From positions 1 to 64,000 of the forward strand of contig NZ_SMKR01000007.1 in the NCBI RefSeq assembly GCF_004348725.1: DNA of 64,000 nucleotides. Direction: 5' to 3'. Below are positions 51,190 to 54,556 of the stretch, one piece after another. Both the position numbers and the translations under genes were made by a program. Below the pieces are notes generated by a model. That model ran no database searches and had not been told where the DNA came from. It worked only from the letters and a program-made list of their open reading frames with translations. How positions within the stretch are numbered: the first letter of the stretch is position 1; the number at the start of each line of letters is the position of its first letter. This DNA comes from Kribbella turkmenica (GTDB lineage Bacteria > Actinomycetota > Actinomycetes > Propionibacteriales > Kribbellaceae).

Positions 51190-52209
51190 ATGCGTCCGGT
51201 CGACTGTGTCGCTGCCCTGATCCGCGACGAACACCATCGCGTCTACGTCCAGCGCCGTACGGCGGAACGGCGGCTGCTGCCCGGGATCTGGGACATCGTC
51301 GGCGGACACCTGGAGCCTGGGGAGACCCCCGAGCAGGCACTGGCCCGGGAGGTCGAGGAGGAGACCGGCTGGAAGGTCCGGGACATCGTCTGGTCCGTCG
51401 CCGACTGGGAGTGGGAGTGGGAAGGCCGCGTACGGCGTGAGCTCGACTACGTCGTCACCGTCGACGGCGACCTGGCCCGGCCGCGGCTCGAAGAGGGCAA
51501 GCACGACGCGGGCGCCTGGGTCGGACCGGACGATCTCGACCTGCTGATGGTCAACCGGACCGACGGCGACCGGCGGCTGCGCGACATCGTGGCGTACGTC
51601 GTCCGCACCCGTTTCACCGAGCGCCTCCGCCTCGAACCGCTGACCGGTCCAGGCGAGGTCCTGCCCGGACATGCGGCGGACCTGGTCGAGTTGTACGCCG
51701 ATCCGTGGGTTGCGCACTGGTACGCCGAGACGTTGCCCGAGGAGGACGCCGTACTCCGCGCCATCCAGGCCCAGGCCCGCTGGGAGGGCGACGGCGTGAA
51801 CAAGTGGATGGCGTTCGAACGTGGCAGCGGAGCGCTCGCCGGGCGGGGCGGACTGTCCCGGTGCGGGCCGGGCGACCCGGTGACCGAGCAACTCACTCGG
51901 CTGGTCGGACCGGACTGGGCGGCCACCCGGCTCGAGCTGGGGTGGGCGCTGACCGAGTCGGCCCGCGGGCGCGGGCTGGCCACCGAGATCGGTCGCGCCG
52001 GGCTGGCGTTCGCGTTCGAGACGCTGGGGGCGCGGTCGGTGATCGCGTTCACCGAGCGCCACAACGTGGCGTCGCGAGCGGTGATGGAGCGCCTCGGCAT
52101 GACCTACGCGGGTGAGATCACCGCGGCAGGCCGGTTCGAGGGATCGGCCGAGATCCGCCCGGACGCACCGTTCCCTGTGTATGTCACCGGACCTCAAGCG
52201 GACATCTAG
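51190..52209 (+). CDS. Nudix hydrolase-GNAT acetyltransferase fusion
   Basis: This 339-residue two-domain protein has a Nudix domain at residues 1-150, with GHLEPGETPEQALAREVEEE plus TGW, a complete Nudix box (GX5EX7REUXEEXGU). A GNAT acetyltransferase occupies about 155-330, with LELGWALTESARGRGLATEI (motif A) and TERHNVASRAVMERLGM (motif B). Nudix enzymes cleave nucleoside diphosphate linkages; GNATs move acetyl groups. The fusion suggests linked steps, perhaps nucleotide-sugar or cofactor editing, but no substrate is evident. ATG 51190 is the start. The stop overlaps the decayed MarR tail on the other strand. Confidence 0.85.
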   Translation: MRPVDCVAALIRDEHHRVYVQRRTAERRLLPGIWDIVGGHLEPGETPEQALAREVEEETGWKVRDIVWSVADWEWEWEGRVRRELDYVVTVDGDLARPRLEEGKHDAGAWVGPDDLDLLMVNRTDGDRRLRDIVAYVVRTRFTERLRLEPLTGPGEVLPGHAADLVELYADPWVAHWYAETLPEEDAVLRAIQAQARWEGDGVNKWMAFERGSGALAGRGGLSRCGPGDPVTEQLTRLVGPDWAATRLELGWALTESARGRGLATEIGRAGLAFAFETLGARSVIAFTERHNVASRAVMERLGMTYAGEITAAGRFEGSAEIRPDAPFPVYVTGPQADI

Positions 52210-52328: not shown

Positions 52329-52507
52329 CGCGGCCGGCTCGATGACGAGCGTCTGACAGCAGCCGGCCGGGCCGGGCTGGACGGGCTCACGGCGAAGGTC
52401 TGGGCGCGGCGCGAGCGGGTACCGCGAGGATCACCGGCGCGGAGTACCCCGCGGCCGTCGACGTCCTGCGACGGATGGCCGGAAACCTGAAGGGCTCCGC
52501 TGCGTGA
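52329..52507 (+). pseudogene. Decayed MarR regulator C-terminus (plus strand)
   Basis: RGRLDDERLTAAGRAGLDGL, then TAKVWARRER, ends in a one-base frame change before ITGAEYPAAVDVLRRMAGNL and a stop. The two pieces make a typical MarR wing-end, long helix and C-terminal helix. No start or helix-turn-helix core remains. Its end is followed by the stem GTGACCGCC/GGCGGTCAC (52504-52528), probably the old terminator and the first hairpin of the array. Confidence 0.55.
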
Positions 52508-52843
52508 CCGCCCAGGCGCGGCGGTCACACAGCGGAGCCGGCCACCTCGGGGGGTGGCTCGTGGTGAGGTGTCACGAGCCACACGGTGTCCTACCGCCCA
52601 GGACACTCCCCGCCTGGCCCGAGGTGTCGGCCAGGAGGTGGTTGGAACGGCTGGGCGGCGGTGATACAGGGACTCAACCGCCAGGCCCAGCCGGGTCTGT
52701 GGGCGGTGCGGTCCGGAGTTGAGGAGTACTCCGGACCGCACCTGGGTTTCGTCCGGAACTGAGGAGTGCTCCGGACCTTCAGGTGCTGCTCCTGGACGTG
52801 AGGAGACCCCAGGACGCAGCTGCCGGGTCTGAGGAGGACCCGG
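52498..52843. other. Run of consecutive hairpins; last four loops all carry TGAGGAG
   Basis: This is about 346 bp of back-to-back stem-loops. Stems: 52498-52512/52520-52534 (one mismatch); GTGGCTCGTG 52554-52563/52573-52582; GTGTCCT 52586-52592/52600-52606; CCTGGCC 52613-52619/52629-52635; CGGCTGGGC plus GGCGGT 52648-52662/52677-52693; 15 perfect bp at 52705-52719/52728-52742; GTCCGGA 52751-52757/52770-52776; GCTGC plus TCCTGG 52785-52795/52809-52820; CCGGGTC 52823-52829/52837-52843. TGAGGAG sits in the loops at 52720, 52760, 52799 and 52830, while the stems differ. Loop 52564-52572 has TGAGG, and loop 52620-52628 has GAGG. On the minus strand the array would be the 3-prime untranslated region of the 62-codon gene, and the loops would read CTCCTCA, similar to the anti-Shine-Dalgarno CUCCU. 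I recognise no named RNA family. Confidence 0.6.
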
Positions 52844-52856
52844 ACGGTCGGGTGTT

Positions 52857-53045
52857 TCAGTCGTCGGTGTCGAGCGGACCGAGTACGTCGTTGGTGACCC
52901 GGAGGCCGGCGAACCGCCTCCGCATCGCCTGCTCGTAGCGGGCCGCCAGCGGCGCCTCCGCGACGTACTGCGCGATCACATGCTCGCCGAACCAGACCCG
53001 CACTCTGCGGCGGTGCTGTCTCGACGTCATCTCCGCGATGGTCAC
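52857..53045 (-). CDS. 62-residue basic protein next to the hairpin array
   Basis: This 62-codon gene encodes MTIAEMTSRQHRRRVRVWFG, then EHVIAQYVAEAPLAARYEQA, then MRRRFAGLRVTNDVLGPLDT. It is helical and Arg-rich, with an RVRVWFGEHVIA segment that looks conserved, but I know no family function. ATG 53045 is followed by a second Met at position 6. It is divergent from the helix-turn-helix/TPR regulator across 215 bp holding an inverted repeat and 11-bp direct repeats. Its stop is 14 bp from the first hairpin on its strand. A regulator or partner of the divergent protein is plausible. Confidence 0.6.
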   Translation of the reverse strand: MTIAEMTSRQHRRRVRVWFGEHVIAQYVAEAPLAARYEQAMRRRFAGLRVTNDVLGPLDTDD

Positions 53046-53075
53046 TACCTCTCACCCCGTAACTCTCAGGCCTTG

Positions 53076-53098
53076 CAACCAGTTGGACTTACTGGTTG
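53076..53098. promoter_or_regulatory. 8-bp inverted repeat in the divergent gap
   Basis: CAACCAGT (53076-53083) and ACTGGTTG (53091-53098) are perfect inverted arms with a 7-base spacer. They sit about 31 bp upstream of the 62-codon gene, where an operator would lie. Confidence 0.5.
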
Positions 53099-53139
53099 TC
53101 ATGGCAGTAATGGTGCACGAGCCCAACGTGACCGCTCTA

Positions 53140-53205
53140 GGACCTGGACCGGACCTTTGCCGGACCTCTTCCGGACCTCTCGCGGACATCTGGGGGACAG
53201 CACCT
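53140..53205 (+). repeat. Six direct repeats with exact 11-bp period (GGACCT core)
   Basis: GGAC begins at 53140, 53151, 53162, 53173, 53184 and 53195, exactly 11 bp apart. Four copies are GGACCT, then GGACAT and GGACAG. An 11-bp period puts each copy on the same face of the helix, as in the direct-repeat sites of SARP-type activators. The array lies 56 bp upstream of the regulator start at 53261. Confidence 0.7.
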
Positions 53206-53260
53206 TGTCGTGGGGCATCAGTCGAGACAACGTCTGAACTGACGTGAACGGGAGGAACCG

Positions 53261-54556
53261 ATGGCGGGTAGGTACACGCCAAAGACGGTCCTGGCGCACC
53301 TGATCCAGCGCCGGAACCAGACCTACTCCGAGATCGTCGCCGAGTTCGTCGAGCTGGGTGGAACCATCACCGAGCGGCACCTGCGGCGCCTCGCATCGGG
53401 CGAGCGCGCGGGGACCACTCCTCAGACCCGGCGCACCCTGCAACGCATGTTCGGCAAGCCGGTCGAGGAACTCCTCGCCCCGTACGTCCCCGAGCAGGCC
53501 GCCCAGGTGGTGCCGGCACCTGCCGCGAGTGGACGGATCACGACAGGTAATGAGATGGAGGTTCTCGACATGGCTGCCAGCCGAGCGAGGGCGTTTGCCC
53601 TCGCGGCCCAGTCCGGTCTCGGAAGCGAGGCCATGGAACAGGTGTACGACGACGTGCGTCACGTCGCGAAGGCCTACCCGCAGCGGCCGCTGCCGGAGAT
53701 CCTCGGCCAGCTGGTCGAGACCCAGGATCTGGTCTTCGCCCTGCTGGAGAGCCGGCAGCGTCCGGAGCACCTGCGGCAGCTGTACTTCCTCGGCGGCGTC
53801 ACCGGCGGCCTGCTCGCCAAGGCGTCCCACGACCTCGGCAACCCCCACGCCGCCCTGACCCAGGCGCGGACGGCGTTCCTCTGCGCCGACAACGCCGACC
53901 ACCACGGCCTGCGCGCCTGGGTGCGCGGCCTGCAGTCGCTGGTCTCCTACTGGGCCGGGAACCCGCACGACTCCGTCCGCTACGCACAGCTCGGTGCCGG
54001 GTACGCCGAGCAGGCCAACAGCACCACCAGCGTCTGGCTGCCGGTGAGCGAGGCCCGCGCGTGGGCGGCGCTGGGCAATCCGGAGGCCACCCGGGCCGCC
54101 CTCGAGCGGGCCGAAGCGGCCTGGAACACAGTCCGCAACGACGACCTGGACGAGATGGGCGGCCTGTGCACCTTCGGCCGCCACCGCCAGCTCTACTACG
54201 CGGCCGACGCGCTCGCCTGGCTGCCGGGCGAGGTCGAGCAGGCCGAGCGGTACTCCAGCCAGGCCGTGGACGCCTACAACGACCAGAACCACCCGGAGTG
54301 GGCCTTCGGCGACGCCGCCGGCAGCCAGGCCGCGATGGCCATCAGCCGGATCGTGAACGGCGAGCTGGACGGTGCCGCGGACGCGATCGCCCCCGTGCTG
54401 GACCTGCCGGCCGAGCGCCGGATCAACGGCGTGGTGCACTCCGCCCGCAGGGTCCACCAGGCGCTGCGGCAGTCCGGCCGAGCCGACGACGCCCGCGAAC
54501 TGCAGGAAGAGATCGAGATGTTCACCCGGACTCCCATGCAGACGTTTCCCCGGTAA
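53261..54556 (+). CDS. Helix-turn-helix regulator with TPR-like repeats (NsdA-like)
   Basis: This 431-residue protein has an N-terminal helix-turn-helix-like region (residues about 4-60: VLAHLIQRRNQTYSEIVAEF, TITERHLRRLASGERAGTTP) and a long helical C-terminal part (about 95-420) of TPR-like pairs (ARTAFLCADNADHHGLRAWV; ERYSSQAVDAYNDQNHPEWA; AISRIVNGELDGAADAIAPV). It resembles the NsdA-type regulators of Streptomyces that control sporulation and antibiotic production. ATG 53261 follows GGGAGGA by 6 bases. The six 11-bp repeats upstream should bind its regulator. A GNAT gene follows after 10 bp. Confidence 0.75.
   Translation: MAGRYTPKTVLAHLIQRRNQTYSEIVAEFVELGGTITERHLRRLASGERAGTTPQTRRTLQRMFGKPVEELLAPYVPEQAAQVVPAPAASGRITTGNEMEVLDMAASRARAFALAAQSGLGSEAMEQVYDDVRHVAKAYPQRPLPEILGQLVETQDLVFALLESRQRPEHLRQLYFLGGVTGGLLAKASHDLGNPHAALTQARTAFLCADNADHHGLRAWVRGLQSLVSYWAGNPHDSVRYAQLGAGYAEQANSTTSVWLPVSEARAWAALGNPEATRAALERAEAAWNTVRNDDLDEMGGLCTFGRHRQLYYAADALAWLPGEVEQAERYSSQAVDAYNDQNHPEWAFGDAAGSQAAMAISRIVNGELDGAADAIAPVLDLPAERRINGVVHSARRVHQALRQSGRADDARELQEEIEMFTRTPMQTFPR

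Follow-up and report, generated by a model that had tools for sequence, protein, structure and literature searches.

The window analysed here is a 64,000-nucleotide stretch of Kribbella turkmenica DNA (contig NZ_SMKR01000007.1, positions 1 to 64,000). Nearly all of positions 52493-52843 lies in inverted repeats, forming an array of eight or nine hairpins that directly follows the gene of a very small, arginine-rich protein in Kribbella (38 of 38 genomes searched). The array sits between this gene (52857-53045, minus strand) and a gene that converges on it (51190-52209, plus strand). In the product of the latter, a NUDIX and a GNAT acetyltransferase domain are fused; the position of this gene is not conserved. 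On its other side, the small gene is separated by a divergent promoter region (53046-53260) from a plus-strand gene for an NsdA-family TPR-like regulator (53261-54556; NF053720, 98.4 bits, cut-off 75), which is the divergent neighbour at 38 of 38 loci. One record bearing the Kribbella locus is titled Streptomyces sp. SID13031 (L086, L108) and is probably misnamed. In a block alignment, the 400 bases at the plus-left side of the array average 0.2-0.6 identity and the array itself 0.7-0.99, while the small gene and the promoter region are mostly at 0.9-1.0, with conservation continuing into the NsdA-family gene. Conservation stops sharply past the terminal hairpin, at the minus-strand 3' end of the array.

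The small gene, immediately upstream of the array, has 62 codons and a GTG start (QHRRRVRVWFGEHVIAQYV...). The protein is near-identical in all 38 genomes, codon changes are synonymous and the GTG start is fixed; the sequence clearly marks the gene as coding. The AlphaFold model has a beta-beta-alpha-beta fold (pLDDT 85). The protein has no Pfam, NCBIfam or PHROGs match, and the predicted fold has no Foldseek match at E <= 0.001; the best VIA-align Z (5.6) is to a designed miniprotein. A PDB sequence search was uninformative. The family of this protein is basic and nearly genus-restricted, counts 5-12 copies in each Kribbella genome and has the pattern RRRVRVWFGEHVIAxY...AMxRRFAGLRVTN (L056-L062, L070-L126). 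No member was found in 395 other genomes of the phylum sample; outside Kribbella, there is one weak match in the order sample and there are two relatives in Nocardioides speluncae. At the seven loci of the window's genome that carry paralogues, the array is absent. In one orthologous group of paralogues, some species have a terminator and a single AACCUCAC hairpin. The paralogue at about position 2864 of L064 (minus strand; also L092-L110) is 66% identical to the small gene and has a very conserved leader. Behind it, some species have a hairpin with the loop AACCUCAC or CACCUCAC, then strong hairpins ending in TTTTTC; this region is possibly a second 3' UTR RNA.

The divergent promoter region is very conserved, with 20-base blocks showing 89-100% identity to the window in 37 genomes. 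Just upstream of the small gene it contains a perfect 8-bp inverted repeat, CAACCAGT-N7-ACTGGTTG (53076-53083/53091-53098), which is nearly invariant in the 38 genomes. It also contains five GGACCT/GGACAT repeats with an exact 11-bp spacing (53140-53189). These repeats resemble a cooperative operator, of which the NsdA-family regulator is perhaps the ligand.

The hairpins are numbered H1 to H9 along the minus strand, 5' to 3'. H1 (52823-52843) has the loop CCUCCUCAG, which is the same in 35 of 37 copies, and four of its six stem pairs have two-sided changes. H2 (52791-52813; loop GUCUCCUCACG) has CUCCUCA in all copies and a stem that is 100% paired, in which two pairs covary; an optional outer stem (52785-52819) is poorly conserved. 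The loop of H3 (52751-52776), GCACUCCUCAGU, contains UCCUCAG, and 93% of the cells in its stem are paired, two pairs having two-sided changes. One arm of H3, AAGGTCCGG, is nearly invariant, and at 52770-52779 the plus strand of this hairpin contains CCGGACCTT, a word of the promoter repeats, which may be either a coincidence or a regulator site. H4 (52705-52742) has a 15-bp stem (100% paired, seven pairs with two-sided changes) and the loop ACUCCUCA. H5 (52648-52693) is a long, almost invariant stem (14 pairs, 100% paired) whose loop contains CCCUGUAUC, with CCCUG-UAUC conserved. H6 (52614-52634) has the loop GACACCUCG (the same in 36 of 37 copies). The minus-strand sequence on its 5' side includes CCACCUC (52635-52641), a possible partner of 52543-52549 that may also stay free. 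H7 (52586-52606; loop GGGCGGU) lacks CCUC and is dispensable, being absent or replaced in many species and lost in at least nine. In H8 (52555-52581; loop ACACCUCAC), the stem varies more than in any other hairpin (mean column identity 0.80) and seven of nine pairs have two-sided changes. H9 and a short U run (52486-52539; loop GCGCCUG) form a candidate intrinsic terminator, with two-sided changes in eight pairs. At L039 (genome G014), H9 is missing or rearranged and H1-H8 are retained.

The preliminary description had proposed about nine consecutive hairpins, selected as RNA structure with fixed loops, and both proposals are borne out. Folding of the region is more stable than that of 100 dinucleotide shuffles on either strand (z -7.2 on the plus strand, -9.8 on the minus strand). 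Across 37 aligned copies from orthologous loci (pairwise identity down to 0.71), 98.1% of pair cells are paired, the covariation score is 0.130 and 32 of 88 pairs show compensatory, two-sided changes. Controls in which the pairing partners were slid gave two to seven such pairs, at most 44.7% paired cells and a covariation score of at most 0.041, a comparison in which the structure, drawn on the window's own sequence, is favoured over slid versions for cells paired. Stronger evidence comes from the shuffle control, in which none of 500 shuffles reached the observed pairing and covariation values, and from the count of two-sided changes, which is still 27 of 88 pairs after dereplication to 17 copies. 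Such changes are present in H1, H2, H3, H4, H5, H6, H8 and H9, with H8 and H4 the richest. A long closing helix around H6-H8 (52543-52549 with 52635-52641) has no two-sided change and is possible, not established. The array is genuine, and selection acts strongly on it as RNA.

Several observations bear on which strand would be transcribed. About 13 nt separate the end of the small gene from H1, and the gene is read in the same direction as the minus-strand array. At least three T residues occur within the 6 nt after H9 in 23 of 36 species, compared with 4 of 38 beyond the opposite end of the array read on the plus strand, although the U run after H9 is short and missing in some species. Read on the minus strand, G-U cells outnumber A-C cells by 73 to 29 (40 to 12 among the 17 dereplicated copies), and RNAalifold energy and covariation are also better. 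In the block alignment of 37 genomes, the sequence upstream on the plus side was not conserved. The minus strand is almost certainly the RNA strand.

The array is single copy in the genome, which rejects a genome-wide repeat, and the 37 other Kribbella genomes each have it at one locus. A plasmid or mobile origin was also rejected, there being no plasmid match in DNA or protein. The array is absent from 60 genomes of other families in the order, and searches of about 500 other actinobacterial genomes revealed no homologue. A covariance search of actinobacterial genomes, as the preliminary description had advised, was made with a model of H1-H4 and gave no convincing match beyond Kribbella (345 genomes of the phylum and 159 others of the order); sporadic matches with E-values of 0.003-0.004 resemble single long hairpins or chance and were discarded. 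A search of 395 other genomes for a triple CTCCTCA pattern returned coding or tandem repeats and no locus with three motif loops. Two loci had two motif loops, one in a tandem repeat (L171) and one weakly folded (L188). The genome samples were drawn evenly and are not exhaustive, and covariance models are poor for RNAs with freely varying stems, such that relatives in other actinobacteria could be missed. This weakness of covariance models has been pointed out for the alphaproteobacterial family (PMC3927594).

CCUC is found in six of the nine predicted loops; in 300 dinucleotide shuffles the mean was 0.35 and the maximum 3. The loop cores are almost invariant, with UCCUCA in H1-H4 and ACCUC in H6 and H8. 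On the plus strand, TGAGGAG does lie at 52720, 52760, 52799 and 52830, in the loops of four different stems, as had been reported from the sequence. Two extra related loops (52564-52572 and 52620-52628) read GAGGTGT on the plus strand and ACACCUC on the minus strand. The selected RNA reads on the strand opposite to the plus strand emphasised previously; the CTCCTCA word mentioned beside it, close to an anti-Shine-Dalgarno (anti-SD) sequence, belongs to this minus strand. Mean column identity in the loop and stem is 0.99 and 0.94 for H1, 0.99 and 0.91 for H2, 0.99 and 0.96 for H6, 0.97 and 0.80 for H8 and 1.00 and 0.92 for H9. In H3, H4 and H5, loop identity is similar to or below that of the stems, as the loop bases around the constant core vary.

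The loop words overlap the 3' tail of 16S rRNA (CACCUCCUUU), and the tail GGATCACCTCCTTTCT was found in the genome. UGAGGAG lies 4-9 nt before an ATG at 86 places in the genome, compared with 41 for a reversed control, and an excess is seen in all 38 genomes. In terms of genome sequence, this excess shows that possible targets exist and does not say which are used. The complementarity between loop and Shine-Dalgarno (SD) sequence is only 5-7 nt and generic, and does not by itself account for specificity. Unpaired C-rich loops complementary to the SD and kept while the stems covary are the features by which anti-SD C-rich-loop sRNAs are recognized, and the array has them; invariant loops would equally fit a protein ligand.

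The proposed mechanism begins with a minus-strand transcript that would start in the conserved promoter region, encode the 62-residue basic protein, continue into the hairpin array and end at the predicted intrinsic terminator (H9 and the U run). The array would act as a 3' UTR or be cut out as one or several sRNAs. Its six redundant loops (UCCUCA or ACCUC) would copy the 16S rRNA 3' tail and pair with GAGG-type SD sequences of target mRNAs (candidate words facing the loops are UGAGGAG and GGUGAGGUG), such that translation would be repressed in trans. The array is probably the 3' region of an mRNA, or an sRNA released from that region, whose six redundant anti-SD loops would block translation starts. 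Among the options given in the preliminary description, a modulator of ribosome binding fits best. This reading builds on the conserved RNA structure, the near-invariant loops, the linkage to the small gene and the restriction to Kribbella among the genomes searched; action in trans is proposed because of the analogy with NfeR1, sX13 and the ccaF1-CcsR operon, discussed below. A more tentative extension, possible but doubtful, is a protein-plus-RNA cassette parallel to CcaF1-CcsR. In such a cassette, the small protein would chaperone its own array or act in its processing, with the divergent NsdA-family regulator in control, giving an Hfq-free global switch of translation linked to development or to secondary metabolism.

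The loops could instead act in cis, folding back as part of the 3' UTR on the 5' UTR of their own mRNA and setting translation or decay for the small protein alone, as a 3' UTR C-rich loop of the Staphylococcus icaR mRNA reportedly does. The array is not found apart from the small gene, whose 5' UTR carries an invariant GAGUUACGGGGUGAG (leader GGGGUGAG), and the loops of H8 (-13.2 kcal/mol) and H6 (-12.2 kcal/mol) pair with this leader best of all loops. However, one or two loops would suffice for this purpose and six are kept, UCCUCA is not the best match to the 5' UTR, and both partners are invariant, which precludes a covariation test. Action in cis is rather unlikely to be what the array is for, although cis and trans action may coexist. 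Protein sites, too, typically combine a short fixed loop with varying stems, and the loops could be decoys that bind an RNA-binding protein in titration or autoregulation. The small protein, being basic, adjacent and conserved in 38 of 38 genomes, would be a candidate ligand, as would its paralogues. CCUC is the only common part of the loops, however, which come in two versions and in lengths of 7-13 nt, with H6 and H8 unlike H1-H4; the 16S-tail match would have to be a coincidence, the checked paralogues in this genome have no such array, and CsrA itself is absent. A protein decoy is judged improbable.

The remaining two readings set aside either the strand or the RNA. A plus-strand RNA with GAGGAG loops might serve as a GGA sponge, or as an SD-like sponge that takes up the ribosome or antisense RNAs; folding is good on the plus strand as well, and the C-A cells of H8 would read as G-U on it. 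Such an RNA is nevertheless extremely improbable given the lack of conserved upstream sequence on the plus side and of a U run at the plus end, and given that the G-U excess and the RNAalifold results favour the minus strand. The CsrB/RsmZ-like sponge suggested earlier shares repeated hairpins and a fixed loop word with the array, but GGA needs the plus strand, whereas the array reads as RNA on the minus strand, with CUCCUCA loops, and PF02599 (CsrA) had no match in the genome in a search in which controls were detected. Tandem terminators or a protein-bound DNA element, also suggested earlier, would suit the position between convergent genes and the terminator-like H9. One terminator is enough, however, and this reading, which we consider very improbable, leaves unexplained the covariation, the invariant loops (more conserved than the stems in most hairpins), the accumulation of G-U pairs and an opposite flank that is not conserved at all.

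Regulatory RNAs whose mechanism is clear are few in actinomycetes, and these bacteria are not known to have Hfq or CsrA. If the anti-SD reading is true, Kribbella has an RNA that is maintained across the genus by strong selection and is equipped with redundant anti-SD loops. No actinobacterial description of such an RNA was found among open-licence papers. No Rfam family reached its threshold at six loci, and weak matches to sX13, ar14 and others were taken as convergence or chance. The sX13 model (RF02232) gave 25.2 bits on the minus strand (E-value: 0.016; cut-off 50). The Xanthomonas sX13 RNA is similar in having stable stems and C-rich apical loops and in repressing, without Hfq, targets with G-rich motifs near the start (PMC3771888); it differs in its 4C/5C loops, its three hairpins and the absence of a small-protein gene ahead. 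In staphylococcal RNAIII-type sRNAs (UCCC loops) and AbcR, C-rich loops likewise pair with ribosome-binding sites (PMC3771888, PMC7143759); no homology of the array to these RNAs in sequence or structure was seen above Rfam thresholds.

The preliminary description knew of no family like the array. The same design is in fact known from the cuckoo RNAs of alphaproteobacteria, which comprise the alpha-r14 family (NfeR1, SmelA075/A099; Rfam RF02344, ar14) and CcsR1-4 of Rhodobacter and carry the anti-SD word CCUCCUCCC in each loop (PMC7143759, PMC10746234). The array and these RNAs both have several hairpins with variable stems, a fixed anti-SD loop and a small-protein gene ahead (PMC10746234, PMC10253847, PMC3927594). 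NfeR1 has three identical anti-SD loops that redundantly silence mRNAs at the start site in trans (PMC10746234). CcsR is made as one transcript behind a small-protein gene, with a Rho-independent terminator at its end, and the ccaF1-CcsR operon consists of a gene for a small RNA-binding protein, then the anti-SD sRNAs and the terminator, with processing by RNase E (PMC10253847). Gene order and the candidate terminator of the Kribbella locus are compatible with co-transcription and RNase E processing of the kind seen for CcsR (CIN1 locus). The Kribbella array differs in being actinobacterial, in its UCCUCA and ACACCUC loops, which have only CCUCC(U) in common with CCUCCUCCC, and in carrying six motif loops in one 350-nt array. 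Homology to alpha-r14/CcsR was not found by the tests run: the ar14 model gave the array 17.5 bits against a cut-off of 58.8, and no member of the small-protein family matches any model of DUF1127, the type of small protein whose gene is linked to CcsR at the CIN1 locus. From its loops, stems and gene order, the array looks like an RNA that works as a cuckoo RNA does, yet it is no member of that group and appears to be convergent and undescribed. If so, the arrangement of small protein and cuckoo RNA would apparently have had an independent origin, raising the question of whether a tiny basic protein with an anti-SD array is a recurrent route to Hfq-free riboregulation.
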